Source of the DNA: Anaerolineae bacterium
GTDB taxonomy: Bacteria; Chloroflexota; Anaerolineae; Anaerolineales; Villigracilaceae
NCBI GenBank assembly: GCA_003524705.1
Contig: DQGV01000226.1
Span: 1-12,077 of the forward strand
Direction of reading: 5' to 3'
DNA: 12,077 nucleotides
Shown here: piece by piece, positions 1 through 12,077 of the stretch
Position numbering within the stretch: the first letter of the stretch is position 1
Layout of the letters: each line of letters starts with the position of its first letter
Made by a program: the position numbers and the translations under genes
Notes under the pieces: model-generated
Told to the model about the DNA's origin: nothing
The model's input: only the letters and a program-made list of their open reading frames with translations
The model's database searches: none

Positions 1-519
1 CCTGATTACATGGTGATGGGCATGAGTGCCGAAACATTTTGGGATGGCGTTGAAGGCAATCGTAAATTTACAAAACGAATTTCTGATTGGGCGCATGGAC
101 TCAAAGTTGCCACAGGTGCAGAAGCTTGTGAACGCGCTTTGAAATTATTTAACGTAAAGAAAATTGGCGTGGTGACTCCCTATCAACCAGTCGGTGATAA
201 AAATGTTGTGCGCTTCTTCTCTGACCTTGGGTTTGAAGTTGCCGCGATAAAAGGATTTCGTTGCCCGACAGCTATTTCAATTGCACACGTCACGCAAGAT
301 GAATTACGAAATGCATTAATGGAAGTCAACAAATCTGATGTAGATGCGTTGGTTCAAGTCGGTACAAATCTCAGCATGGTCAGTTTGGCTGATGAAGCAG
401 AACGTTGGCTTGGAAAACCTGTCATCGCAATCAACGCCGCAACGTATTGGATGGCGTTAAGAGATAATGGTATTCAAGATAAAGTGTATGGATGTGGAAA
501 GTTGTTAAGAGAGTTCTAA
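1..519 (+). CDS. Maleate isomerase/arylmalonate decarboxylase-like protein (3' part, cut by window start)
   Basis: The reading frame is open from base 1 (P-D-Y-M-V-M-G-M-S...) and ends in TAA at 517-519, so the first methionine at base 10 need not be the start. The visible 172 residues resemble the maleate cis-trans isomerase/arylmalonate decarboxylase group of the Asp/Glu racemase superfamily: an 'MSAETFWDG' segment, then 'VGTNLSM', then 'LGKPVIAINAATYW'. Family members are about 240-250 residues, so roughly 70-80 N-terminal residues lie outside. Enzymes of this group use one or two cysteines for isomerisation, racemisation or decarboxylation of dicarboxylic acids. By my by-eye alignment both cysteine positions are changed here: Met in 'GMSAETF' (about base 22) and Val in 'VQVGTNL' (358-360). 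The exact reaction is therefore uncertain. The gene converges on the minus-strand catabolic operon and may contribute to the same pathway. The superfamily call is fairly secure; the substrate is not. Confidence 0.75.
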   Translation, partial: PDYMVMGMSAETFWDGVEGNRKFTKRISDWAHGLKVATGAEACERALKLFNVKKIGVVTPYQPVGDKNVVRFFSDLGFEVAAIKGFRCPTAISIAHVTQDELRNALMEVNKSDVDALVQVGTNLSMVSLADEAERWLGKPVIAINAATYWMALRDNGIQDKVYGCGKLLREF

Positions 520-601: not shown

Positions 602-1912
602 CTAATGTCCTGAAACCATATCCGTTTTGTCATTTCGAGGAACGATTCGCTTTCTAATCACTAAACCAATTACCACAACCACAAAACCTAAAATGCTAAA
701 TAAAATAAACGGACCTTGTGGAAGCCAATTATCAAATAGCTGACCGCCGATTCCAGTGGCAGTCATAATCCCAAATGTGCCACATAGACTAAATATCCCA
801 ATCACTGAGCCACGAATATCACGTGGAGCTTGTTGAGCGATTAAGACTCCGCTGGCAATCACGCCACTGATTTCACCAATCCCAATCAACGCGGCGACGA
901 TAAACATAGACGGTCCAGTTGGGTCAGTGACAAAAATAGTAGAACCATATCCAAATGAAGCAAGAGCAACTGCAAAGATAACGGCATTGGCGCGATTCAT
1001 TCTATCGGACAACATGCCGAAGATTGGAGCAGAAATCAGTGCCATTGTTTGTGAAATGCCGATGATGATTCCAGCCGTAGCAAGTGCTTCGGCTGTAGAT
1101 AATCCTTTTTGTGTTGTGCCATACGTCACCACCCAAAGTGTGAAGAACGTGCCGACGATGGCTAAATCTCCACGCGAGATAAATGCCGCCATGTAGGCTA
1201 ATGCCACACCTGGGTCAGAAGCGGCGGAAATTCCTTCTTTTGCAATTTCGATAAATGATTTCTTTTGTTCAAGTTGAGTCTTCGTGCGATTTTGTAATCC
1301 AAAATATAAAATGATAGCAGAGACAATTGCCACACCCATCATTGCCAGATAAGTGATGCGACCCGCTTCAAATTCGGACATGCCATCTGCTACAAAAATT
1401 TTCGGCAGTTGCAATACAACAAACACGGTCAACAACGCGCCGATGCCATTGCCTACACCTTGAATACCTGATGCTTTGCCGCGGTCTTCATCCATTGCAT
1501 AATCAGCAATGACAGTGGAAATCATCGTCGTCACAGCGGATGAACCTAAAGCAAATAATCCGCGAAAGAAAAATAATGTAAAAACACTATCAACGTTTGG
1601 ATAAAAATATAAAGCTAAGCCCATGATAAGAAAACCAGCCGCAAAAACAAACTTGCGACCGATCTTATCTGATACAGTTCCCCACGCGCCAATGGATAAA
1701 AGAATAATAATTTCTGCAAAGAATTGCAGATTACCACTCAAAACACCTTGTTGAGATTCAGGAATACGAAGAACTTCAGTCAATAAAAATGGTTGAAACT
1801 GTGGCAAGAATGTAAATAACAACAATGAAGTGACCGTAGCAAAATAATATGTAAACATGTTGCCGACTGTCACGCCTTGCATCAAACGAATAGGACCGAA
1901 TTTGGTTGTCAT
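602..1912 (-). CDS. MFS transporter (12 predicted membrane segments)
   Basis: This 436-residue protein is very hydrophobic, with about 12 membrane segments in two halves and a hydrophilic central loop near residues 207-230. Both halves carry MFS motif A between helices 2 and 3: 'GTVSDKIGRK' at 78-87 and 'GMLSDRMNR' at 299-307. Motif-like 'DYAMDEDRGKASG' (137-149) and 'APRDIRGSVIG' (362-372) follow in the corresponding halves. It should be a secondary transporter in the cytoplasmic membrane; substrate and direction (uptake or export) cannot be read from sequence. An AAGGAG ribosome site (1918-1923) lies 5 bases before the ATG. It is the last gene of the six-gene minus-strand operon, 44 bases after the aldehyde dehydrogenase, so it probably moves the substrate or a product of that pathway. 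Family assignment is secure. Confidence 0.9.
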   Translation of the reverse strand: MTTKFGPIRLMQGVTVGNMFTYYFATVTSLLLFTFLPQFQPFLLTEVLRIPESQQGVLSGNLQFFAEIIILLSIGAWGTVSDKIGRKFVFAAGFLIMGLALYFYPNVDSVFTLFFFRGLFALGSSAVTTMISTVIADYAMDEDRGKASGIQGVGNGIGALLTVFVVLQLPKIFVADGMSEFEAGRITYLAMMGVAIVSAIILYFGLQNRTKTQLEQKKSFIEIAKEGISAASDPGVALAYMAAFISRGDLAIVGTFFTLWVVTYGTTQKGLSTAEALATAGIIIGISQTMALISAPIFGMLSDRMNRANAVIFAVALASFGYGSTIFVTDPTGPSMFIVAALIGIGEISGVIASGVLIAQQAPRDIRGSVIGIFSLCGTFGIMTATGIGGQLFDNWLPQGPFILFSILGFVVVVIGLVIRKRIVPRNDKTDMVSGH

Positions 1913-1956: not shown

Positions 1957-3402
1957 TCAAAACGGTCTCGGAGTTTCACCTAATTCCAAACTAATCCACT
2001 TTAATTCTGTAAAATGCTCCACTGAATATTTTCCGCCGCTTCGACCAAAACCAGACATGCCATATCCGCCAATTGGAGCCATGGGGTCTGATTGAAACGA
2101 ATGTGCACCGACATGTACCGAACCGCAACGAATTTTTCTTGCGGCTGTCATACCGCGTACTAGGTCATTTGTTAATATTCCAGCACTTAATCCATAATCA
2201 CTTTCATTCGCAATGGCAATCATTTCATCAAATGAGTCACATTCTGTCACCGAAGCAACAGGTCCAAAGGTCTCCTCACACCAACTTGGTCCAGATTGAG
2301 GCGGGTTGTAAATCACAGTAGGTTGAAAAATTAAACCATCATGTACATCACCACCTGTCAAAATTTCTGCACCACCATCTTTTGCGGCTTGCACATGACG
2401 AATCACTTTATCCAATGCGCGTTGATTAATTAATGGACCATACGCAGTTTTTTCATTTCGCAAATCACCGAGTTGTAAACTTTTTGCTTTCTTTGCCAAT
2501 GCTTCTGCAAATGCGCGACCATTTGGTTTTTCAACTAATATGCGCGCGCTCGACATACAAATTTGACCCGCATGTGTAAACGCACCTACCGCCGCAATCT
2601 CCGCCGCTTTGTTTACATCTTCATCATTCAAAATCAATAACGGATTTTTTCCACCAAGTTCCAATTGCAAACGCTTCATAGATTGAATTGCAATCTCGCC
2701 AATCTTTACACCTGTCGCAGTTGAACCCGTTAATGCAATGCCATTAATCCCAGAATGTTTTGCTAATGGCTCGCCAACTTCTTTTCCAAATCCAGTCACA
2801 ACATTGAACACACCATCAGGCAAACCCGCTTCATGTAAAACTTTTGCAAACTCAATTGCAATCAATGGCGTTTCTTCAGATGGTTTCGCAATCACTGCAT
2901 TGCCTGCGCCCAACGGAAACACAACCATTTTTGCCAACAACACCAATGGCGCATTGAATGGCGAAATTGCTAACACTACGCCTACAGGTTCGCGCACCAC
3001 CATAGACATGCGATGTGGTTTTTCATTTGGCAATGTGTCTGCATACAATCTTCGCACTTCGCCCGCCGCAGTTCTCAAAACAGATGCCGTATACATCACT
3101 TCATATTTTGCTTTGATGATGGTTGACCCGCTTTCATCTATCAATAGATTTAGTAACGCTTCATACTTCGCTTCAACTTGGTCTGCGCACTTCAACAGAA
3201 TCCTCTCCCGCTCCGCAGGTGGAAGTGATGACCAATACAAAAATCCCTTGCGTGCTGATGTCACCGCCGCTTCAGCGTCCGCTTCTGTTCCACGTGCCGC
3301 ATGACCAAGAATTTCTCCAGTCATTGGTGCAACACTTGGAAATGATTCTCCAGTAGATGCAGGGATTTCTTTTCCATCAATAAAATGTCCGTAAGTTTTC
3401 AT
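1957..3402 (-). CDS. NAD(P)-dependent aldehyde dehydrogenase
   Basis: This 481-residue protein has normal length for the aldehyde dehydrogenase superfamily, whose members oxidise an aldehyde to the acid with NAD(P)+ in the cytoplasm. Catalytic elements are present: Asn150 in 'SPFNAPL', the cofactor-side 'KPSEETP' at 173-179, 'GSTATG' at 226-231, general base Glu248 in 'LELGGKNP', nucleophile Cys282 in 'GQICMSS', and Glu377 in 'EETFGP'. The 'SPFNAPL' and 'LELGGKNPLLIL' forms recall the benzaldehyde/vanillin/salicylaldehyde dehydrogenase branch, so an aromatic or other bulky aldehyde is plausible, though this is inference. An AAGGA site lies 6 bases before the ATG. It follows the monooxygenase gene after a 49-base gap holding a palindromic repeat, and precedes the MFS gene. 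It probably oxidises an aldehyde made by upstream enzymes of the operon. Confidence 0.92.
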   Translation of the reverse strand: MKTYGHFIDGKEIPASTGESFPSVAPMTGEILGHAARGTEADAEAAVTSARKGFLYWSSLPPAERERILLKCADQVEAKYEALLNLLIDESGSTIIKAKYEVMYTASVLRTAAGEVRRLYADTLPNEKPHRMSMVVREPVGVVLAISPFNAPLVLLAKMVVFPLGAGNAVIAKPSEETPLIAIEFAKVLHEAGLPDGVFNVVTGFGKEVGEPLAKHSGINGIALTGSTATGVKIGEIAIQSMKRLQLELGGKNPLLILNDEDVNKAAEIAAVGAFTHAGQICMSSARILVEKPNGRAFAEALAKKAKSLQLGDLRNEKTAYGPLINQRALDKVIRHVQAAKDGGAEILTGGDVHDGLIFQPTVIYNPPQSGPSWCEETFGPVASVTECDSFDEMIAIANESDYGLSAGILTNDLVRGMTAARKIRCGSVHVGAHSFQSDPMAPIGGYGMSGFGRSGGKYSVEHFTELKWISLELGETPRPF

Positions 3403-3451: not shown

Positions 3452-4633
3452 TTAAATCCGTTCTTCCAACATACTCGCCTTCAACAAATATTCTCTTGCC
3501 TTCTTTGGATCCTTCGCAATTTCGGAAAGTGATTTATTCCTCTTCACACGTTCTTCATCCGAAGTCATAGCCATATTTTTATATTGTTGGTCTGAATACA
3601 ACTGTACAGATTCAATTGCGTATTTTCTTCTTTCATTTGAATAATCATCCAAAATTGAATCTGATTCGCCATTACATATTCGGATAAATTTCTCTGTCAA
3701 ATTTGCCGCATCATGGATTCCACTATTCATGCCCATTCCACCTGATGGATTGTTATTATGAGCAGAATCACCAACTAACACCACACGCCCAACTCGAAAT
3801 GTATCTGCTACGCGTTGATGAACTCGATACAACTGTGTCGTTTTTATTTGATAATCAGGAACTTCGCCAAAAAAATTCGAGATTCTTTTTCTCAAATTTT
3901 CTTCTTTCATTGCAATGGTTTCATCTTCTTCATTCTGCATTCGAAATACCACACGCACAATATCTGGCAAATTTAAAATAATGACCCACTCTTGCGGGTC
4001 AAAGACATAACAGACTTGTGCCCCATTAGGCAGTAAATCATTTGTGTTCAAGTCACTTCCTATTAAAAGAAAACGGTCTTCGTACGTTTTGCCTTGAAAA
4101 CCGATATTCAATTGCTTGCGAACAGTGCTATGAGTCCCATCTGCTCCACAGAGATACGAACCTTCCTTTTCTACAATTCCATTTTTCGTTTCAAACCTTG
4201 CTGTGACGTGTGTTCCACAATCCACAAAGTCAATTAATTTATGTCCCATATAAACTTTGCCAAATTCAGTTAACTCAACCGCTGGTTTCAACACTCGTGT
4301 TGTAATATGTTGTGGACATTGCAAGCGATATGGATATTTTGTATCTTTGGCAATTACTTGATAATCAAAATCCGCAATGATGGTTCGTGTTGCTCGTTCC
4401 CAATATTGCAATTGGTTAACTTTGTAGCCATGTTTGATGATTTCATCCACAACGCCCCAGTTCTCAAATAACTCCAATGTTTTTGGATGAAATGTACTCG
4501 CTCGAATTTGTGTATTTAATTCCTCATCCGCTTCATAGACTTCAGCATGAATCCCTACTCGTGCAAGTGACAATGCAAGCGAAAGACCGACAGGTCCAGC
4601 ACCAATAATGAGAATAGGAAGAAATTGTTTCAT
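3452..4633 (-). CDS. FAD-dependent monooxygenase, p-hydroxybenzoate hydroxylase fold
   Basis: This 393-residue protein has the three signatures of class A flavoprotein monooxygenases. These are the N-terminal Rossmann 'GAGPVG' (11-16) ending at acidic Glu34, the 'CGADGTHSTVRK' DG motif (162-173) used in FAD/NADPH binding, and 'VGDSAH' with 'SGGMGMNSGIHDAANL' (287-312) contacting FAD. The 'RASTFHPKTLELFENWG' stretch (44-60) is typical of the branch acting on aromatic or N-heterocyclic rings. Such enzymes use NAD(P)H and O2 to hydroxylate or oxidatively open activated rings; the substrate cannot be told. Length is normal for a single-domain member. Its ATG overlaps the stop of the upstream membrane-protein gene by four bases (ATGA, 4630-4633), and no good ribosome site is seen, so translation is probably coupled. 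Its neighbours suggest an oxygen-dependent step in a catabolic pathway. Confidence 0.9.
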   Translation of the reverse strand: MKQFLPILIIGAGPVGLSLALSLARVGIHAEVYEADEELNTQIRASTFHPKTLELFENWGVVDEIIKHGYKVNQLQYWERATRTIIADFDYQVIAKDTKYPYRLQCPQHITTRVLKPAVELTEFGKVYMGHKLIDFVDCGTHVTARFETKNGIVEKEGSYLCGADGTHSTVRKQLNIGFQGKTYEDRFLLIGSDLNTNDLLPNGAQVCYVFDPQEWVIILNLPDIVRVVFRMQNEEDETIAMKEENLRKRISNFFGEVPDYQIKTTQLYRVHQRVADTFRVGRVVLVGDSAHNNNPSGGMGMNSGIHDAANLTEKFIRICNGESDSILDDYSNERRKYAIESVQLYSDQQYKNMAMTSDEERVKRNKSLSEIAKDPKKAREYLLKASMLEERI

Positions 4634-5007
4634 TTAATATTTGCTCTAAATTCTGATGATAATGATTTTGTTCCCCATAACTTAAATAATGAATACAGAA
4701 CTATAGCAACATATACTAATCTGCTTTGCCATGGTTGATCAGGACTAATTACGCCTAAAAAATATAACCCACAAACTGCACCCCAAAATAACAGAGATAT
4801 TTTAGGTAAAAATGATTCTTTACCTTTAGCGACAAAATAAACAGAAAGAAGGTCAATAATCGTAATTACTGTTACAACAGGAAGCAAACAAATCAGAGAA
4901 AGAAGAACCACAATATCTTTTTCAGGATAAATGTTAATGACTATCCCAACAACTATAAGCCAGCCTAATATTGAAGTTGCAACGTGAGCCTTGGTAATCA
5001 ATTTCAT
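4630..5007 (-). CDS. Small membrane protein of unknown function, four predicted helices
   Basis: I do not recognise this 125-residue protein. It is strongly hydrophobic with about four membrane segments, near residues 10-27, 33-57, 69-86 and 93-113, and a Lys/Arg-bearing C-terminal tail. No catalytic motif or signal peptide is evident. It starts 9 bases after the stop of the RCCR-like gene, without a clear ribosome site, and ends in a 4-base ATGA overlap with the monooxygenase gene. This tight packing makes it a real gene co-translated with catabolic enzymes. It could be a membrane anchor, a small transporter component or an accessory factor for the neighbouring redox enzymes; this is speculation. 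Its DNA looks more AT-rich than that of its neighbours. Confidence 0.75.
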   Translation of the reverse strand: MKLITKAHVATSILGWLIVVGIVINIYPEKDIVVLLSLICLLPVVTVITIIDLLSVYFVAKGKESFLPKISLLFWGAVCGLYFLGVISPDQPWQSRLVYVAIVLYSLFKLWGTKSLSSEFRANIK

Positions 5008-5016
5008 TTATAAGAA

Positions 5017-5808
5017 TTATTCTCTTTCCCCTGCATGTAGAATCCTGACCAATCTTTCGCGCATCGGAACACCCAACATACGGTCTGCTAAAACATTGGC
5101 GGGGTCTTTTTCTACAATCGTTCGGCGCACAAGTTCATCACGAGCTTTTAATTTTGCTCGTTTTTCTTTGTCAATTGGCTTCGCATTTTTCACAATCTCC
5201 ACCCACTTCTTGACATACTCCATCATCACAGGCTCAACTGCGGATTTGAAATCTTCAAATGGTAACAAACCGCAAATCGCAATCGGAGATAATGTACTGC
5301 GAGTGTATAAATGTATCGGATTAAAAACTTTATAAGCAGGGTTTCTTTTGAGCGTAATCCAAGATTGATTCATTTGCTCGTGATATTGATTCAAATGTTC
5401 AAAACTTGCGGGTGCATCATAACGTGGAAGAAAATCAACGTAGCAAAAAACATCAGGTGCAGTACCAAGTGCAAATCCAAGATGAGGCGCATCAATTTCA
5501 TCATTCAACCAACAGGTCAGATGAATATTTGTAAATCCAGTTTCAGGTTTCCCGATCCATGAACGCACAATCCAATCCACTGGACTTTTATCACCTGTGT
5601 AAGTGAACATTGTGCCAACCGTGTTGCCTTGCAAATCAGGAATATTTTCAATATCTTTACATTTCAAATCACGCTTCAAACTTAAATTGGCATTGATATA
5701 TTCCCATGCTTGTTCGCGCACATTTAACAAGTAATTAAAATTTTCAGTATTATCTACTGGCTTACGCGAATCAAGTACATCTGCAAGTTGTTGAGTTGTA
5801 TCGCTCAT
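5017..5808 (-). CDS. Red chlorophyll catabolite reductase (RCCR)-like protein
   Basis: This 263-residue protein resembles the plant RCCR family, relatives of ferredoxin-dependent bilin reductases that reduce an open-chain tetrapyrrole in chlorophyll breakdown. Compared from memory with Arabidopsis RCCR, collinear matches run along most of the protein: 'GDKSPVDW' (72-79), 'SWI' (83-85), 'LNDEIDAPH' (101-109), 'VDFLPRYD' (124-131), 'HLNQYHEQ' (138-145), 'LYTRSTLSPIA' (167-177) and C-terminal 'KARDELVRRTIVEKDP' (221-236). Asp235 aligns with plant Asp291, but the plant active-site Glu154 becomes Ala113 and the stereochemistry-setting Phe218 becomes Leu173. No transit peptide or membrane segment is seen. 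Its ATG overlaps the nitrilase stop by four bases, with AGGAG 5 bases upstream. No ferredoxin gene is nearby. The family call is good; the substrate, possibly a bilin or another cyclic nitrogen compound, is unknown. Confidence 0.72.
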   Translation of the reverse strand: MSDTTQQLADVLDSRKPVDNTENFNYLLNVREQAWEYINANLSLKRDLKCKDIENIPDLQGNTVGTMFTYTGDKSPVDWIVRSWIGKPETGFTNIHLTCWLNDEIDAPHLGFALGTAPDVFCYVDFLPRYDAPASFEHLNQYHEQMNQSWITLKRNPAYKVFNPIHLYTRSTLSPIAICGLLPFEDFKSAVEPVMMEYVKKWVEIVKNAKPIDKEKRAKLKARDELVRRTIVEKDPANVLADRMLGVPMRERLVRILHAGERE

Positions 5809-7460
5809 GTTTTCTCCTGTTTACTAATAATTGGTTCTGCCAAATGCCATGGTCTGCCATTCAACACATCAGTGCGATGCGAAACCATTTTATTAACCGA
5901 AGCCGCGGGGTGAATCATTGCTGTTGTTAAACCATCATTTGCCATCGTCACAATTGGAACATTTATATTTCCATCAAACGGGCGATTTTTCCATTCTGTC
6001 CACAATGTAAAATCTTCAGTGATGGCATAAATGCCAGAATCTTTTTTGCTAGCAACAATTACATTCATTCTGTTTTCTGCCGCGCGTTCTTTGAAACCAA
6101 ATTCTGTTTCCCATTTTTCTAAAATCATAGTTGGCACACAAACTACATCAACATCTTTTAATGCCGCCAAACGAAATGTTTCGGGATAAATCGCATCATT
6201 ACCAACGATGATTGCCACACGCCCAAACTCTGCATCAAAAATATTTAATTCATTTCCTAACTTCGACCAAGCAAGTCTTTCTGAATAATGCAATTGAGGT
6301 TGCTTTAACAAAATTTTATTTTTATCAAACATCACACCCACATGTTGATTATCTTCAACAATCGAAGTAACAACAAAAGAATCTTTCATCACTGTTTGCA
6401 ATTCACGAATCATTTCATCATCATTTTCTTTAAGATGAAATAACTCTGGCAAAACGATTAACTTAACTTGATTTGATTCAGCGTCTGCAACATATTTCTT
6501 CGCTTCATTAATCGCCTCTTTTCCTTGACTTGAAACCTGTATCACCCCCACCAACAGATTCTCAGCCCCAACTTTTTTCTTGTTATCTTTGGGCTCATCA
6601 CCAATTGGTTTATATAATTCAGGTCGGCGTGATGTGAAAATATCTGTGCCATCCGGTCTTAACTTATTATCAGCAAAATCAACTTCGATATCTGCAAACA
6701 CAACCGCTTCACCCTTTTTCGGCGCTTTGGCTAAAACTGTTCCATCTGGCGCCACAATTTGACTTTCACCCGCACCTTCGAGAAAACTTGGGTCAATTTT
6801 TAATTTCGCCGCAACATTTGCTCGCATTTCCTCTGGCACAAGTGACCCAACTTTATTCGCCGCTACTACATACACTTTATTTTCTGCGGCTCTTACAGGA
6901 ATATGCAATGAGGCTTCATCATGTGCGAATGAATTCAAACTATTCAATAATATTTGCGGTCGACGTACAGCCAATGCCCTTGCTACTTCAGGAATAACTC
7001 CATCCATACAAGCATACATACCCACTTCACCAATTTCAGTAGAAAGAATCGGCGCGATTTCTGTTGCTTTTTCTAAAAAGTTATTTTCATTGCCCATCAA
7101 AATTTGCTTGTCATTGACTCCCACAATATTCCCCGCTCGGTCAAATAAAATATTCGTGCCCGTTACTTTTCCATTTTCCCGCTTCATCGTCACATTGATT
7201 TTTATATAACAGGCATGTTCTTTGGCTTTGTTCGCAATGCCTTGAATAAACTCATCATCGAGCGAAACAGCCACGCGGTAACAATGTTCCACGTTTTCAT
7301 ACCATGCAATGTGATTGACAAACTCAGGCAACACCATCACGTCAGGTTTGTGTTTTGCTGCTTCATCAATCATGCGTAAGCAGGTAAGTAGGTTTGCCTT
7401 GACATCAGTTGTCACCGCAAATTGCACCGCCGCCGCTCGAATTTTGGTTTTCTTAGCCAA
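5805..7460 (-). CDS. Tandem-domain nitrilase-superfamily C-N hydrolase, second domain probably inactive
   Basis: Two carbon-nitrogen hydrolase domains lie in one chain of 551 residues, about twice the usual single-domain length. Numbering from the TTG start, domain 1 (about 6-285) keeps the catalytic triad: Glu46 in 'VLPEF', Lys118 in 'VNDKQIL' and Cys151 in 'YACMDG'. Domain 2 (about 302-545) keeps Glu339 in 'VLPELF', but the cysteine position is Gly420 in 'IIVGNDAIYPE', and the lysine region 'KQPQLH' does not match cleanly. Domain 2 is probably structural or regulatory. The superfamily hydrolyses amides, nitriles or carbamoyl groups in the cytoplasm, and this protein looks more like an amidase or carbamoylase than a nitrilase. 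I chose TTG at 7460 because GGAGG (7467-7471) lies 6 bases before it. The ATG at 7475 would have no ribosome site and lies only about 15 bases after the predicted transcript start. It is the first gene of the operon and overlaps the RCCR-like gene by ATGA. Confidence 0.85.
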   Translation of the reverse strand: MAKKTKIRAAAVQFAVTTDVKANLLTCLRMIDEAAKHKPDVMVLPEFVNHIAWYENVEHCYRVAVSLDDEFIQGIANKAKEHACYIKINVTMKRENGKVTGTNILFDRAGNIVGVNDKQILMGNENNFLEKATEIAPILSTEIGEVGMYACMDGVIPEVARALAVRRPQILLNSLNSFAHDEASLHIPVRAAENKVYVVAANKVGSLVPEEMRANVAAKLKIDPSFLEGAGESQIVAPDGTVLAKAPKKGEAVVFADIEVDFADNKLRPDGTDIFTSRRPELYKPIGDEPKDNKKKVGAENLLVGVIQVSSQGKEAINEAKKYVADAESNQVKLIVLPELFHLKENDDEMIRELQTVMKDSFVVTSIVEDNQHVGVMFDKNKILLKQPQLHYSERLAWSKLGNELNIFDAEFGRVAIIVGNDAIYPETFRLAALKDVDVVCVPTMILEKWETEFGFKERAAENRMNVIVASKKDSGIYAITEDFTLWTEWKNRPFDGNINVPIVTMANDGLTTAMIHPAASVNKMVSHRTDVLNGRPWHLAEPIISKQEKT

Positions 7461-7466
7461 AAACTG

Positions 7467-7471
7467 CCTCC
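7467..7471 (-). promoter_or_regulatory. Ribosome binding site fixing the TTG start of the nitrilase gene
   Basis: Minus-strand GGAGG is spaced 6 bases from the TTG at 7460-7458. It lies after the in-frame ATG at 7475-7473, so that ATG cannot use it. The conserved domain starts right after the TTG ('AKKTKIRAAAVQF'), consistent with the shorter protein. Confidence 0.75.
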
Positions 7472-7478
7472 ACATCTA

Positions 7479-7497: not shown

Positions 7498-7527
7498 AAT
7501 ATACCGCAGTAAAGCACTTTCTGTCAA
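7498..7527 (-). promoter_or_regulatory. Sigma70-type promoter of the minus-strand catabolic operon
   Basis: On the minus strand, a consensus -35 TTGACA (7522-7527) and -10 TATATT (7498-7503) are separated by 18 bases. Transcription would start near 7490-7492, inside the 14-bp palindrome, giving a leader of about 30 bases to the TTG start. It would drive the six genes down to 602. Confidence 0.7.
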
Positions 7528-7826: not shown

Positions 7827-8846
7827 ATGCCAACCAAAAAACGCACGGTCACTATCCAGGATGTTGCAAAGAAAGCAGGAGTATCTGTTTCTACAGTTTC
7901 GCGCGTGTTGAACGGAAAGGCAGATGTAGCAGGAGATACCCAAGAAAAAATCCTCGGCGTTATCAGCAAGTTGGGGTATACCTCTAACCTAGCCGCACGC
8001 AGTATGCGAAGCCGCCGAAAAGATTTGCTAGGTTTAGTCGTACCGGATATCGGTTTTCCTTATTCAATTGAAGTGATGAAAGGGATTAACCGAGCCATAG
8101 CAGAATCAAAATTTGATTTATTGGTTTACACTATGGGGGATGTGAAAAAATCTGGGGCAGTCATCCACGAACAACATTACGTTTCCTTATTAAATAACTC
8201 AATTACAGATGGTGTCATTATTGTAGCCAGCGCCGCGGCAGAATTTATTACCGATGCGCCTATCATTGCTGTTGACCCGCATGTTGTAAATCCAAAATAT
8301 CCATCTGTACAAGGAACAAATTACCATGGGGCATTAGATGTGATGAATTACCTTTTGCAATTGGGACACAAACGCATCGGATTCATCTGCGGGAGACCTG
8401 AGATTGCCAGCGCAGAAAGACGGCTTACGGGATACAAAGATGCACTCAAAAAAGCAAGCATCGAAATTGATGAGACATTAATTAAAGATGGGGATTTCAC
8501 AACAAAATCTGGTTATACATCCGCTTTAGAGTTATTGAAACTAGAAAACCCACCTACTGCAATTTTTGCCGCAAACGACCAATCTGCATTGGGTGTTTTT
8601 CAAGCCGCAGAAGAATTAGGGTTACACATTCCTGATGATTTATCTATTGTCGGGTTTGATAACATCGCAGAAGCCAAGTTTGTTGGGCTTACAACAGTTG
8701 ACCAATTTCTTTCAGAAATGGGCTACATCGCAACACAAATGCTCATCAAAATGGTCAACAATGAACCATTAGATGTTCAAGTTCACAAAATGCCAACTAG
8801 GCTTGTGGAGCGCACTTCATGCCGAGCATTAGAGCCTGTTCATTAA
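7827..8846 (+). CDS. LacI/GalR-family transcriptional repressor
   Basis: This 339-residue protein has normal length and architecture for the family. The N-terminal helix-turn-helix is 'VTIQDVAKKAGVSVSTVSRVLNG' (8-30, named here in parts), the hinge helix is around 'LAARSMR' (55-61) with Met60 where Leu is usual, and a periplasmic-binding-protein-like sensor domain follows. That domain shows 'VMNYLLQLGHKRIGFICG' (172-189), 'TAIFAANDQSALG' (244-256) and 'DDLSIVGFDN' (270-279). It should bind operators as a dimer and respond to a sugar or sugar derivative. Matching operators lie at its own promoter and ahead of the sugar-binding lipoprotein, so it very probably controls the downstream ABC importer and itself. 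No ribosome site is obvious before the ATG, suggesting low-level translation. The inducing sugar cannot be predicted. Confidence 0.93.
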   Translation: MPTKKRTVTIQDVAKKAGVSVSTVSRVLNGKADVAGDTQEKILGVISKLGYTSNLAARSMRSRRKDLLGLVVPDIGFPYSIEVMKGINRAIAESKFDLLVYTMGDVKKSGAVIHEQHYVSLLNNSITDGVIIVASAAAEFITDAPIIAVDPHVVNPKYPSVQGTNYHGALDVMNYLLQLGHKRIGFICGRPEIASAERRLTGYKDALKKASIEIDETLIKDGDFTTKSGYTSALELLKLENPPTAIFAANDQSALGVFQAAEELGLHIPDDLSIVGFDNIAEAKFVGLTTVDQFLSEMGYIATQMLIKMVNNEPLDVQVHKMPTRLVERTSCRALEPVH

Positions 8847-8867
8847 TTATGGAAGTGTGCGTTATGT
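8839..8867 (+). promoter_or_regulatory. Possible promoter of the sugar-uptake operon
   Basis: TTCATT (8839-8844) and TTATGT (8862-8867) are spaced 17 bases apart, overlapping the end of the regulator gene. Both boxes are weak matches. The support is mainly positional: a start near 8874 would put the LacI-type operator just downstream. Confidence 0.35.
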
Positions 8868-8878
8868 TTTTTTATTCA

Positions 8879-8898
8879 TGTCGGTAACGCTACCGACA
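8879..8898. promoter_or_regulatory. LacI-family operator 2, upstream of the binding-protein gene
   Basis: TGTCGGTAACGCTACCGACA is a 20-bp palindrome with a single mismatched pair near the centre. Its half-site TCGGTAACG matches operator 1 at 7780-7793. It is placed between the regulator and the ABC importer genes, where bound repressor would block transcription of the importer. Confidence 0.8.
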
Positions 8899-8918
8899 AA
8901 TATAAAGGAGGTGGTTTG

Positions 8919-8942
8919 TTGCGCAAGATAAAAATTAAATAG
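8919..8942 (+). CDS. Candidate leader peptide ahead of the solute-binding protein gene
   Basis: A strong AAAGGAGGT ribosome site (8904-8912) precedes two tandem TTG codons. From the second, 7 bases after GGAGG, the frame reads M-R-K-I-K-I-K and stops at TAG (8940-8942). It lies just after operator 2 in the leader of the importer operon. The stop codon's last base is the first base of a hairpin (8942-8980), so a terminating ribosome would disturb that stem. The peptide is Lys-rich and too short for homology. It could also be a decayed gene start, since the downstream lipoprotein also begins M-R-K. Only the good ribosome site supports it. Confidence 0.35.
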   Translation: MRKIKIK

Positions 8943-8980
8943 CAGGCCTTCCAGACCTTTTGCGAAGAAGGAAGACCTGC
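8942..8980 (+). promoter_or_regulatory. Leader hairpin A
   Basis: GCAGG (8942-8946) pairs with CCTGC (8976-8980) and CTTCC (8948-8952) with GGAAG (8970-8974), with one C/A mismatch between them. A short CTT/AAG pairing is possible inside. There is no T-run after it, so it is not an ordinary terminator. It may stabilise the mRNA or act with the small upstream reading frame. Confidence 0.5.
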
Positions 8981-8985
8981 ACCAA

Positions 8986-9007
8986 TGTGCGGAGAATTCT
9001 CCACACA
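8986..9007 (+). promoter_or_regulatory. Leader hairpin B with possible ribosome-site switch
   Basis: TGTG-C-GGAGAATTCTCC-A-CACA is a 22-base near-perfect palindrome, with a 12-bp perfect core at 8991-9002. Its TTCTCC (8997-9002) can pair with its own GGAGAA or with the identical GGAGAA at 9041-9046, which contains the ribosome site of the solute-binding protein gene. This permits two alternative structures, only one of which leaves the start region open. Confidence 0.4.
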
Positions 9008-9051
9008 AAATTAGTATAACTCATAACAATTATTCAAGAAGGAGAAGAAAC

Positions 9052-10500
9052 ATGCGTAAGTCAATTTTGTCAGTCTTAAGTTTGTTAATGATTGCCAGTA
9101 TGCTTTTAGCAGCCTGCGGCGGTGGTTCCTCTGCAACCGAAGCCCCTGCTGATAGCGGTGGTTCCTCTGATAGTGGTGGTTCATCCGATAGCGGTGGCTC
9201 ATCTGATAGTGGCGAAAAGCAAGTCCTCAAAGTATGGTCATTCACCAATGAAATTTTGACCATGGCGATTGCTTTTGAAGGTCAAAACCCAGATGTAGAT
9301 GTTCAATTCACCATGATTCCTATGGATGCTGGTGAATATCAAACAAAAATCAAAGCCGCAATTGGTACCGCTGATGTACCAGATGTAGTCGCGTTAGAAG
9401 CGGCTTTCGTCAAAGAATGGGTAGAAGCCGATTTCCTCGCTGATTTAGGTGATTTATTACCTTTAACAGAAGAATTACAAACCTATCCTTCCGTTGTTGA
9501 AGTAGGTACTCATGAGGGTGTAACAAAAGCCTATTCCTATCAAGCAACTCCTGGTGCTTTCTTCTATCGCCGTAGCATTGCAACAGAATGTCTAGGCACT
9601 GATGACCCAGCTGAAGTTCAAGCTTTGGTCAATGATATTGAATCATTCCTTGAAGTTGCCGAAACCATCAAACAATGTAATCCAAATTACTTCACCGTTG
9701 GTACTTCGGGTGAATTGTTCAATCCGTTCCTCGCCAATCGCGCTCAACCATGGATTGTTGATGGTGCTTTGGTGATTGACCCACAAGTTGAAGCCTACAT
9801 TGACTTCGCCAAATTGATGCGCGATAACGGCTACGAATCACAAGCCAATCAATGGAGTGAAGGTTGGTTCGCTGGTATGAACGACTCCCTCGTTGGTGCT
9901 GATGGTCAACCAAAGAAAGTCTTCAGCTACTTCTTACCCACTTGGGGCTTACCATACGTGTTGATTCCAAACTCTGGTGATACCGGTGGTGACTGGGCTA
10001 TGATTAATGGTCCATTGCCTTATCAATGGGGTGGTACTTGGGTTGGCGCAATGGCAGACAGCCCGAACCTCGATTTAGCAAAAGAATTCGTTGCTTTCGT
10101 TGCGCTCAATGAAGAAAACTTAACCAACTGGGCAACCGGTGTGTACACCAACGAATACCTCAAAGCCATTGACCCAACTGTAGCAGATGGTCAAGCACAA
10201 GCCGCTGGTGACTTTGTTTCCAGCCAAGTTGTCGTTGAGAAAATCACTTCCTCATTTGACGGCTCTGAATTGTATGAATGGCTCGGTGGTCAAAACAACT
10301 ACGAAGCCTTCGGTGTAGCCGCTCCGAATGTAAATGGTGCCTTGCTCACTGGTTCTGATGATGCGATTCAACGCGCACTTCAAAGTGCCCGTGACCAATA
10401 TTTGAACGGCGAAATTGATAAAGCCACCATGTGGCAACAATGGTTAGACGTCGTTCGCAGTGAGTTCCCGGATTTAGTTATCCCTGAACCTCCACAATAG
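9052..10500 (+). CDS. Sugar ABC transporter solute-binding lipoprotein (family 1, MalE/UgpB-like)
   Basis: This 482-residue precursor begins with a lipoprotein signal peptide (M-R-K, hydrophobic core, lipobox 'LLAAC', lipidated Cys22). A flexible linker of Gly, Ser and Asp follows (23-54). The mature part has features of extracellular family 1 binding proteins: 'KVWSFTNE' near 59, 'DVPDVVALE' near 109-117, and late 'GTWVGAMADSPNLDLAKEFVAF', a segment shared by MalE/UgpB relatives. It should be anchored outside the membrane and deliver a sugar or oligosaccharide to the downstream permeases; many Trp/Tyr residues fit carbohydrate stacking. AAGGAG (9039-9044) lies 7 bases before the ATG. Likely control is by the upstream LacI-type repressor through operator 2 and perhaps by leader structures. 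The exact sugar is not predictable. Confidence 0.92.
   Translation: MRKSILSVLSLLMIASMLLAACGGGSSATEAPADSGGSSDSGGSSDSGGSSDSGEKQVLKVWSFTNEILTMAIAFEGQNPDVDVQFTMIPMDAGEYQTKIKAAIGTADVPDVVALEAAFVKEWVEADFLADLGDLLPLTEELQTYPSVVEVGTHEGVTKAYSYQATPGAFFYRRSIATECLGTDDPAEVQALVNDIESFLEVAETIKQCNPNYFTVGTSGELFNPFLANRAQPWIVDGALVIDPQVEAYIDFAKLMRDNGYESQANQWSEGWFAGMNDSLVGADGQPKKVFSYFLPTWGLPYVLIPNSGDTGGDWAMINGPLPYQWGGTWVGAMADSPNLDLAKEFVAFVALNEENLTNWATGVYTNEYLKAIDPTVADGQAQAAGDFVSSQVVVEKITSSFDGSELYEWLGGQNNYEAFGVAAPNVNGALLTGSDDAIQRALQSARDQYLNGEIDKATMWQQWLDVVRSEFPDLVIPEPPQ
9151..9213 (+). repeat. 18-bp coding tandem repeat (Asp-Ser-Gly-Gly-Ser-Ser linker)
   Basis: Three full 18-base units begin at 9151, 9169 and 9187, plus half a unit at 9205-9213, each starting GATAGYGGT. 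They encode D-S-G-G-S-S repeats in the linker after the lipobox of the binding protein. The differences between units are at third codon positions, so the amino acid repeat is conserved while the DNA drifts. Copy number may vary between strains and so change the distance between membrane anchor and ligand-binding domain. Confidence 0.85.
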
Positions 10501-10516
10501 TAATTTGATATAAAAC

Positions 10517-10550
10517 TTGCAGGTCAGCAATTCATTTTGCTGACCTGCAA
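10517..10550 (+). promoter_or_regulatory. Intercistronic hairpin after the binding-protein gene
   Basis: Arms 10517-10530 and 10537-10550 form a perfect 14-bp stem (TTGCAGGTCAGCAA) with a TTCATT loop. The next bases on the + strand are AAAATCTT, with no T-run, so termination should be poor. Between binding-protein and permease genes such stems commonly protect the upstream message and raise binding protein over permease; that role is inferred. Confidence 0.7.
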
Positions 10551-10577
10551 AAATCTTACGTACCAAAAGGAGATATG

Positions 10578-11525
10578 ATGAAGTTTACAAAAATCAATCG
10601 GAATTATTACGGGTATTTTTTCATAGCCCCATTTATTATTGCATTCCTAGTTTTTGGCTTGTATCCCCTTTACAATACATTATCACTTAGTCTTACAGAT
10701 TACACTTTGATGACACGAAAAGGGGAATATATTGGATTGCAAAATTTCACAGTCTTATTCGCTGACCAACTCTTTTTGAAAGCAATTGGCAACACATGGC
10801 TGATTTGGTTATTGAACTTTATCCCACAAATCGGTGTAGCACTTTTGTTATCTGCTTGGTTTACAAACAATCGCTTAAAGATTAAAGGTGTAGGCATTTG
10901 GAGAGCTATTTTTTACTTACCCAATCTTTTGATTCCTGTCGTGATTGCCGCATTGTTTAATAGCTTCTTTTCGTTTTACGGACCCATCAACCAATTCATG
11001 GTCAGGTTTGGGTATCAAGCCGAAGCAGTACATTATTTACAGAATGTTGAAATTACTCGAGCTGTCGTAATATTTATTCAGTGGTGGATGTGGTTTGGAC
11101 AAACAATCATCATTGTTATGGCAGGTATGACTTCTATCCCTGTGCATTTGTATGAAGCCGCCATGGTAGATGGGGCAAGTGCCGCGCAAATGTTTAGACG
11201 CATCACGCTTCCTTTACTTAAGCCAATTCTGATTTTTATTTTCGTCACATCACTGGTTGGGGGTATGCAAATGTTTGATATTCCATACCTGTTGACCGAC
11301 GGAAGAGGCGCACCGAGTAATTCCATTATGACAAACAATATCCTCATGTATATGAAGTTTGCAAGCAGCCGAGGTCATATTGGTGCCGCATCCGCAGTAG
11401 CAGTCTTAACTTTTATTATGACAACAATTTGTGCGTTGGGAATCTTTTTCGTATTGCGCGATAAAGATGATACCGTTTCTAATAAACCAAAAAGAAGTTG
11501 GTTTAAGAAAAGTGAAACAAAGTAG
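10578..11525 (+). CDS. Sugar ABC transporter permease, MalF type
   Basis: This protein of 315 residues has about six membrane helices, beginning 'YFFIAPFIIAFLVFGLYP', a typical first segment of MalF/UgpA-like permeases. The cytoplasmic EAA loop is present as 'EAAMVDGASAAQMFRRI' followed by 'TLPLLKP', about residues 193-216; it docks the ABC ATPase. Two tandem ATG codons occur at 10575 and 10578. I chose the second because GGAG (10569-10572) lies 5 bases from it and only 2 from the first; the difference is one Met. It forms the membrane channel with the next permease and receives substrate from the upstream binding lipoprotein. The C-terminal tail is Lys-rich and cytoplasmic. No ATPase gene is in the window, so it lies downstream or a shared ATPase serves the system. 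Confidence 0.92.
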   Translation: MKFTKINRNYYGYFFIAPFIIAFLVFGLYPLYNTLSLSLTDYTLMTRKGEYIGLQNFTVLFADQLFLKAIGNTWLIWLLNFIPQIGVALLLSAWFTNNRLKIKGVGIWRAIFYLPNLLIPVVIAALFNSFFSFYGPINQFMVRFGYQAEAVHYLQNVEITRAVVIFIQWWMWFGQTIIIVMAGMTSIPVHLYEAAMVDGASAAQMFRRITLPLLKPILIFIFVTSLVGGMQMFDIPYLLTDGRGAPSNSIMTNNILMYMKFASSRGHIGAASAVAVLTFIMTTICALGIFFVLRDKDDTVSNKPKRSWFKKSETK

Positions 11526-11531
11526 GCTACC

Positions 11532-12077
11532 ATGCTAAATAATTACAAATTCAACACTACTTTATTACGGTTTTTTATATACATTGTTTTGATTTTCCTA
11601 CTCATCCTTATCGTTGTGCCGATTTGGATATTAATCGTGAATGCTTCACGTTCAACTGTAGAAATTCAACAAGGTTTAAGTTTGATACCAAGCACAAACT
11701 TGATTAATAACTATAACGTTTTAGAAAATAGAGGTCTTAACATGGTAAGAGGGTTTACCAACAGCTTCTATTTAGCGGCAGCATCTACCCTTGTGACTGT
11801 TTATTTCTCTATGCTAACCGCATACGGTATCGTCGTATATAACTTCAAAGGCAGACAAACATTTTCAAATTTCATCTTAGTATTGGTGATGATACCAACG
11901 CAATTAACCATTATTGGCTTCTTCCAATATATGTCGAGATTGGGTCTCACCGATAACTACGCCGCGCTGATTTTGCCCTTAATTGCAAATGCTGGCGGTG
12001 TATTCTTTAGCAAACAATATTTTGAATCTATGCTGATTCAAGATTTAATTGACGCGGCACGCATTGATGGTGCCAGT
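11532..12077 (+). CDS. Sugar ABC transporter permease, MalG type (5' part, cut by window end)
   Basis: The ATG at 11532 lies 6 bases after the stop of the MalF-type gene, and the frame stays open to the last base, giving 182 residues. The N-terminus is one long helix (about 12-37) with 'VPIWILIVNASRS', typical of the first helix of MalG/UgpE permeases. A region rich in 'NSFYLAAASTLVTVYFSMLTAYG' (in parts, about 77-99) and further helices follow. The final residues 'DLIDAARIDGAS' are the start of the EAA loop that contacts the ATPase. About 95-100 residues should lie beyond the window. The ribosome site is weak (TAGG about 5 bases upstream), so translation may depend on the preceding gene. It pairs with the MalF-type permease as the channel. 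Confidence 0.9.
   Translation, partial: MLNNYKFNTTLLRFFIYIVLIFLLILIVVPIWILIVNASRSTVEIQQGLSLIPSTNLINNYNVLENRGLNMVRGFTNSFYLAAASTLVTVYFSMLTAYGIVVYNFKGRQTFSNFILVLVMIPTQLTIIGFFQYMSRLGLTDNYAALILPLIANAGGVFFSKQYFESMLIQDLIDAARIDGAS

Follow-up and report, generated by a model that had tools for sequence, protein, structure and literature searches.

The stretch of DNA analysed here (the window; 12,077 nucleotides of contig DQGV01000226.1, assembly GCA_003524705.1, from an Anaerolineae bacterium of the Chloroflexota) carries on its minus strand, at 5017..5808, a gene for a 263-residue protein of the red chlorophyll catabolite reductase (RCCR) family, which is referred to as RCCR-A. The reading frame began with ATG and had no internal stops. 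Residues 52–255 matched the Pfam profile RCC_reductase (PF06405) with 65.6 bits (E = 5.2e-18), above the cut-off of 24.9, and the score against Fe_bilin_red (PF05996) was 19.8 bits, below the cut-off of 31. The best solved relatives by sequence were the Arabidopsis RCCR structures (3agb, 1.1e-9; 3aga, 1.5e-9; 2zxk, 1.7e-9), and the next was GtPEBB (6qwq, 1.1e-3). The predicted structure of RCCR-A had the RCCR/bilin-reductase fold, which is the fold of both PF06405 and PF05996. A preliminary description of the gene, made from the letters alone, had named it a bacterial RCCR homologue and had proposed the Pfam search and the structure comparison as checks; both were carried out and both upheld the assignment, as did the conserved residues. 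Among the family motifs listed in that description, the last one needs a small correction to RD...RR...E.D, with spacers of three residues instead of two.

Homologues of RCCR-A at E <= 1e-3 numbered 43, with at least 95% query coverage in 41 of them and a lowest identity of 44%. In comparison with the close relatives L001–L003, on which the estimate rests (L012 and L015 were left out, dS not being computable), the nonsynonymous rate dN was 0.008–0.017 and the synonymous rate dS was 0.38–0.55, giving a dN/dS of about 0.015–0.037. RCCR-A is under purifying selection. Because of the 43 homologues and the low dN relative to dS, the gene is neither a chance reading frame nor a decaying one. A separate 168-residue protein (P0042) joined the N-terminus of a carbon–nitrogen (C–N) hydrolase to the C-terminus of an RCCR, and is probably the product of a deletion, or of an assembly error, that runs across both adjacent genes.

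The relationships of RCCR-A were evaluated with a FastTree phylogeny of 168 rows, rooted on cl7, a protein family of the wider gene cluster described below; the clade-B-type rows were the best 120 of 422 matches. Clade A (41 rows), which contained the window gene and whose named or placed members were Chloroflexota, was monophyletic with a support of 0.88, and two Thiotrichales sequences were sister to it (0.97). The named cyanobacterial RCCRs formed a supported group (0.998) with further rows inside clade B, the deeper nodes of which had values of 0.0–0.4. The RCCR of Parahaliea also fell with clade B, and some clade-B proteins are already named RCCR by NCBI. Arabidopsis RCCR lay outside clades A and B with a support of 0.92; it is the only plant row and its branch is long, so it cannot settle the origin of plant RCCR. 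The Nostocales homologues, called red chlorophyll catabolite reductase in databases, thus resemble the window protein as members of the family, but they belong to clade B and their hosts are oxygenic phototrophs. RCCR-like genes of cyanobacteria were described as RCCR family in 2009 (PMC2716323). In the work of Rockwell and colleagues, RCCRs and related sequences served as an outgroup, with Schekmanbacteria sequences falling there (PMC10151467).

The active-site columns were counted on the same 168-row alignment (41 clade-A rows, 119 clade-B rows, Arabidopsis and four cl7 rows among them), with plant residue numbers given as chain index + 43, counted from the F218V site. The preliminary mapping of Asp291 to Asp235, Glu154 to Ala113 and Phe218 to Leu173 agreed with the alignment to Arabidopsis RCCR. 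Conserved positions in RCCR-A were D78, H96, H109, D125, R129, R170, D224, R228 and D235, the last opening a D-P-A-N motif at 235–238. The Asp291 column held Asp in all 41 clade-A rows, all 119 clade-B rows and Arabidopsis, and D125 and R129 were invariant in both clades. Of the two residues looked for as marks of a functional plant-type RCCR, the counterpart of Asp291 was therefore present (D235) and that of Glu154 was replaced (A113). The Glu154 column was Ala in 41/41 clade-A rows, Ala in 115 and Val in 4 of the 119 clade-B rows, Asp in 4/4 cl7 rows and Glu in Arabidopsis. His occupied the H96 column in every row of both clades and the H109 column in all clade-A and 114/119 clade-B rows, and Arabidopsis had Asn in both. 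The Phe218 column was Leu in 40/41 clade-A rows and mixed in clade B. Compared with plant RCCR (PF06405; PDB 2ZXK, 3AGA–3AGC), the window protein thus shares family and fold and keeps D235, D125, R129, R170, D224 and R228, but differs at Ala113, His96, His109 and Leu173. Judged from these columns, the changes at Glu154 and Phe218 are not peculiar to the window protein, and Ala at 154 marks the whole bacterial group. The bacterial group thus has an active-site dress of its own and is no decayed plant enzyme.

In the window, RCCR-A lies within a minus-strand run that may be co-transcribed. The run starts with a two-domain C–N hydrolase of the nitrilase superfamily (5805..7475; PF00795, E = 2.7e-48, two stretches), which overlaps the start of RCCR-A by 4 bases. 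RCCR-A is followed by a hydrophobic open reading frame (ORF) of 125 aa with no family match (4630..5007), a class A flavin adenine dinucleotide (FAD) monooxygenase (3452..4633; PF01494, E = 2.1e-58; MhpA/PRK06184-like, under the NCBIfam cut-offs), an aldehyde dehydrogenase (1957..3402; PF00171, E = 1.8e-152) and a major facilitator superfamily (MFS) transporter (602..1912; PF07690, E = 1.7e-45). The successive gaps were -4, 9, -4, 49 and 44 bases. The N-terminal half of the C–N hydrolase keeps what we take, by eye, to be a Cys-containing active-site-like motif, and the C-terminal half seems to be without the Cys. A sigma-70-like promoter, TTGACA-18-TATATT (11/12 match), lies on the minus strand at 7498..7527, 22 bases upstream of the hydrolase start; two promoter-like sites were found in the stretch against 2.0 expected, so there was no excess over chance. 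On the plus strand, positions 1..519 hold the 3' part of a maleate isomerase/arylmalonate decarboxylase/EutA-like protein (family match to PF17645), cut by the window edge. The catabolic setting proposed earlier was thus found, and the placement of RCCR-A between the C–N hydrolase and the FAD monooxygenase holds except that the 125-aa ORF intervenes before the latter. This ORF was unmatched in all 51 other neighbourhood loci that were searched, and for that reason it is probably not a conserved part. Divergent from the operon, positions 7827–12077 carry a LacI regulator followed by a solute-binding-lipoprotein-like protein and two ABC-permease-like proteins (these three read by eye); when the neighbourhood proteins were clustered, the LacI/ABC genes recurred beside the operon in L002 only.

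The survey of neighbours that had been suggested for homologues was carried out for 19 clade-A loci (the window, L001–L015 and L089–L091) within 12 kb of the RCCR gene. The counts were taken from tblastn maps with a 60-bit floor because the ORF caller had chosen antisense ORFs for real genes (families cl26, 28, 29, 34, 41, 42 and 80), and they are lower bounds, many loci ending at contig or excerpt edges. An FAD monooxygenase was present in 19/19 loci, not always as the direct neighbour, and a C–N hydrolase in 16/19; among the misses, L005 and L011 start at a contig edge and L015 is truly without the gene. An arylmalonate-decarboxylase-like (maleate-isomerase-like) gene was found in 13 loci, an isochorismatase-type hydrolase in 12, an aldehyde dehydrogenase in 10 and an MFS transporter in 9. 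In genomes of the Roseilinea type (L012, L013, L014, L090 and L091), the clade-A module had, between the C–N hydrolase and the FAD monooxygenase, a Rieske oxygenase of another kind (cl73, Ring_hydroxyl_A type).

A larger cluster, which also includes amidases, was found in relatives among some Anaerolineae and a few Gammaproteobacteria, its families being assigned from representative proteins. In G756 (L092), RCCR-A stood at the contig start, and the 20 kb after it held, mainly on a single strand, the module genes and then alpha/beta hydrolases (cl23 and cl2), membrane proteins, an isochorismatase, a CoA-transferase III, an HpcH/HpaI aldolase, a GntR-UTRA regulator, DUF3891, a Rieske oxygenase with a VanA_C domain (cl1), cl7 and the no-Pfam proteins cl12, 17, 18 and 20. 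In G113 (L081), the cluster lay 2.85 Mb away from the genome's own RCCR-A gene and continued with a short-chain dehydrogenase/reductase, a flavin reductase/HMG-CoA-lyase-like fusion, LeuC, LeuD, a second CoA-transferase, a hydantoinase/allantoinase-like amidohydrolase, an MFS transporter and an acyl-CoA-dehydrogenase-like protein. The fusion is a single ORF (L081:11807-13201, plus strand) joining the flavin reductase and HMG-CoA-lyase-like domains, and some relatives have shorter ORFs. The LeuC family (535 bits; cut-off 385), LeuD/DmdB (204; 109) and HMG-CoA lyase (323; 246) exceeded their NCBIfam cut-offs. The amidohydrolase (231 vs 358) and the mesaconate-type CoA-transferase (301 vs 700) scored under theirs, and hence both are certain to superfamily only. 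The nearest solved structures of the VanA_C-type Rieske protein cl1 were SxtDIOX and NdmA. The profile matches of cl2 were mostly to polyethylene terephthalate hydrolases, cutinases and lipases, and one cl2 protein matched Chlorophyllase at E = 0.006, below the cut-off; cl2 was accordingly rejected as a chlorophyllase and kept as a hydrolase only. The alignments comprised the window with 21 of the 43 homologues (A1), 17/21 called cl7 ORFs (A2), 15/28 cl1 (A3), 14/23 cl2 (A4), 10/17 cl12 (A5) and 15 chosen RCCR sequences (A6).

By sequence profile, cl7 had no significant solved relative and no Pfam match; profile–profile and fold comparison revealed its kinship with RCCR and the bilin reductases. 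At least 1,834 cl7 proteins were found at E <= 1e-5, and a Pfam domain was absent from 119 of the 120 listed. The no-Pfam protein cl12 also had no significant solved relative; for cl12, 17, 18, 20 and 40, lipocalin-like is a tentative working label taken from a G-x-W-x-G look. A cl12 match was missing only in G001, G750 and G135 among the 30 genomes searched, G635 having a 26-residue piece only.

The RCCR-A profile matched 18 of the 396 genomes of the class, 9 of them through clade A, 8 through clade B and one, G566, through cl7 alone. The cl7 family occurred in 16 genomes, 15 of which had RCCR A or B, and the RCCR genomes without cl7 were G001 and G615, the latter with a cluster seemingly cut by the contig end. 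The Fisher p for this co-occurrence was 4e-24, a value inflated by kinship and linkage. Among the 16 cl7 genomes, clade A was present in 8, clade B in 7, both in none and neither in one (p 0.0014); when six further relatives were added, both occurred in one genome, G765 (p 0.0003). The gene directly ahead of cl7 was Rieske cl1 in 21 of the 22 loci from Chloroflexota, as it was in the 22nd according to a separate search for cl1 homologues; this count omits G769, which has cl7, and L016, a near twin of L017. In the order of Parahaliea, RCCR-like genes were found in 4/125 genomes, Parahaliea included, and Parahaliea maris HSLHS9 (L018) is a strain-level carrier of the cluster. G902, G891 and G793 of this order had many cluster families within about 20–38 kb in another order, with the Rieske gene not adjoining cl7. 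In G864, also of this order, six matches to the RCCR/bilin-reductase superfamily (L138–L143), with E values no weaker than 1e-3, were scattered along the chromosome. A tblastn search of plasmids with RCCR-A, one cyanobacterial RCCR and one cl7 gave no match, which rules against plasmid spread.

With some reserve, we favour the reading that RCCR-A is a working enzyme of the RCCR/ferredoxin-dependent bilin reductase superfamily, most likely reducing an open-chain tetrapyrrole in carbon and nitrogen catabolism. The substrate would resemble a bilin or phyllobilin, or would be a dipyrrole derived from such a compound. The earlier suggestion of a tetrapyrrole-pathway reductase is strengthened by the relatives' cluster, with its Rieske oxygenase, second bilin-reductase-fold protein and maleate- and imide-type enzymes; the part concerning substrate and activity stays a prediction. 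In the order of steps proposed here, each of which is inferred from family, the hydrolases cl2 and cl23 would strip ester groups, the Rieske oxygenase would open or oxidise the macrocycle, and cl7 and the RCCR-type enzyme would reduce the linear product. Monooxygenases of the FAD type and of the acyl-CoA-dehydrogenase type with flavin reductase could then split the product into pyrrolinones and maleimides, whose imide or lactam rings would be opened by the hydantoinase-like amidohydrolase and the isochorismatase-type and C–N hydrolases with release of ammonia. The maleate-isomerase-like protein, the LeuCD/DmdB-type hydratase, the CoA-transferases and the HMG-CoA-lyase/HpaI-type aldolases may feed alkylmaleates into central metabolism, possibly with a benefit for growth. 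The LeuCD/DmdB, CoA-transferase III and HMG-CoA-lyase-like genes presumably suit alkylmaleate use, as in the dimethylmaleate/homoaconitate hydratase (LeuCD/DmdAB) and mesaconate-type CoA-transferase routes; unlike in those routes, the genes have a Rieske oxygenase and proteins of the bilin-reductase fold as neighbours, and they are absent from the window itself. If cl2 or cl23 are esterases, an ester-bearing chlorophyll-type pigment would be favoured over a heme-type one. Maleimide-type intermediates are plausible because mono- and dipyrrolic chlorophyll breakdown products are reported from leaves and herbivores (PMC7318184).

Several results weigh against this reading. The downstream enzymes come from widespread families that act on other N-heterocycles too, and the bacterial clade is without the plant Glu154. 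RCCR-B lay within 12 kb of cl7 in just 7/22 loci, and the Rieske gene was next to cl7 in 0/4 gammaproteobacterial loci (G864 omitted). A motif scan found no ferredoxin-like motif that might point to an electron donor in the window, and relatives gave scattered, chance-like matches. As far as the genomes searched can tell, no known enzyme accounts for where an open tetrapyrrole would come from. Stay-green was found in 0/18 RCCR/cl7 genomes of the class, a zero overlap also expected by chance (p 1.0), and in 0/12 further genomes in a search without a positive control; a plant-type pheophorbide a oxygenase (PaO) domain exceeded the cut-off in 0/23 genomes, with one weak match in G793; and heme oxygenase was matched in 1/26 carrier genomes and in none of the other 25. 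Because of these results, neither the plant route nor the heme-oxygenase route is visible, and heme opened by heme oxygenase was rejected as the general source. Finally, cl7, cl12 and a close cl1 homologue were missing from G001 and G750, which are the window's nearest sampled relatives, and from G135, a distant genome; G001 and G750 had a distant cl1 homologue at about 1e-60. Since these relatives are without cl7, cl12 and the close Rieske gene, the reductase module may be all that the window lineage has, and such genomes would take up pigment that is already open. Against this restriction to a module, a metagenome-assembled genome with the tag HC797 encodes both cl7 and an RCCR-A of 92% identity to the window protein, the two being assigned to the same genome by inference from the protein tag.

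The strongest competitor, which we consider unlikely yet serious, is that the RCCR/bilin-reductase fold was recruited elsewhere, the cluster degrading a non-tetrapyrrole N-heterocycle or aromatic on which the reductases act. Pathways for heterocycles commonly contain a Rieske oxygenase, an FAD monooxygenase, an amidohydrolase, amidases, LeuCD and CoA-transferases, and the Ala at position 154 and the lack of a known tetrapyrrole-opening enzyme in most carrier genomes point the same way. Moreover, the fold of RCCR and the bilin reductases recurs in a subunit of the Ycf2/Orf2971-FtsHi motor of Chlamydomonas, indicating that the fold can leave metabolism. However, those clear fold matches that are enzymes (RCCR, HY2, PebA, PebB, PebS, PcyA, PcyX and coproporphyrinogen oxidase) act on tetrapyrroles, two or three separate superfamily members stand in one cluster in several genomes, and D125, R129 and D235 are invariant in clades A and B.

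Plant-type chlorophyll breakdown, in which RCCR would reduce the red chlorophyll catabolite made by PaO after Mg removal by Stay-green, is improbable. It is in line with the PF06405 membership, the Rieske oxygenase and alpha/beta hydrolases of the relatives' cluster and the weak Chlorophyllase match of one cl2 protein, but Glu154 is not kept and the cluster Rieske protein is of the VanA_C type. The bacterial relatives searched also differ from plants in showing neither a Stay-green nor a PaO-domain partner, though 11/396 class genomes have Stay-green (10 over the cut-off). The Stay-green loci L100–L109 are among these 11, which do not overlap with the RCCR cluster carriers. The plant pathway was thus rejected as a simple reading on Stay-green, the PaO domain and residue 154. 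Mg-dechelatase homologues of Anaerolineae are reported to have been studied earlier (PMC8531759, PMC11006732).

A still smaller chance is given to a bilin biosynthesis gene supplying a chromophore for photoreceptors or biliproteins. Pre-PcyA reductases of heterotrophic bacteria, Chloroflexi included, are reported to make reduced bilins (PMC10151467). RCCR-A shares the predicted fold of the ferredoxin-dependent bilin reductases (HY2, PebA, PebB, PebS, PcyA and pre-PcyA; PF05996), but it scored below the Fe_bilin_red cut-off, heme oxygenase was nearly absent from the carriers, and the FAD monooxygenase and C–N hydrolase are kept near the clade-A genes. A pseudogene or assembly error is scarcely credible, since the ORF is intact, dN/dS is low, 43 homologues exist, an FAD monooxygenase is nearby in all 19 loci, and no support for an artefact was found, the antisense ORF calls having affected some relatives and not the window gene.

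Beyond the role favoured for RCCR-A, we tentatively propose, with doubt slightly prevailing, that a complete and so far undescribed aerobic pathway exists in some Anaerolineae and Gammaproteobacteria, by which tetrapyrroles from chlorophyll or of other kinds would be mineralised. In this pathway, ring opening would fall to a VanA-type Rieske oxygenase, and reduction of the linear product to two dissimilar reductases of the RCCR fold, cl7 and either RCCR-A or RCCR-B. A maleimide–alkylmaleate branch, made up of an imide hydrolase, amidases, a LeuCD/DmdB-like hydratase, a CoA-transferase and an HMG-CoA-lyase-like aldolase, would convert the pyrrole rings to central metabolites; the window lineage would keep only the reductase module and scavenge opened pigment. 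A literature search, mostly without subscription papers, found no description of the RCCR/Rieske/cl7 cluster and no set of bacterial genes that would process a tetrapyrrole beyond its opening. The family is old and the fold is known, the setting is new, and the pathway pointed to would be new. Chlorophyll is broken down yearly in very large amounts, and the defined cluster with its strain-level carrier, Parahaliea maris HSLHS9, makes the question testable. If the proposal is true, cl7 would be an unnamed family on the bilin-reductase fold, and the RCCR finding bears on the origin of plant and cyanobacterial RCCR.
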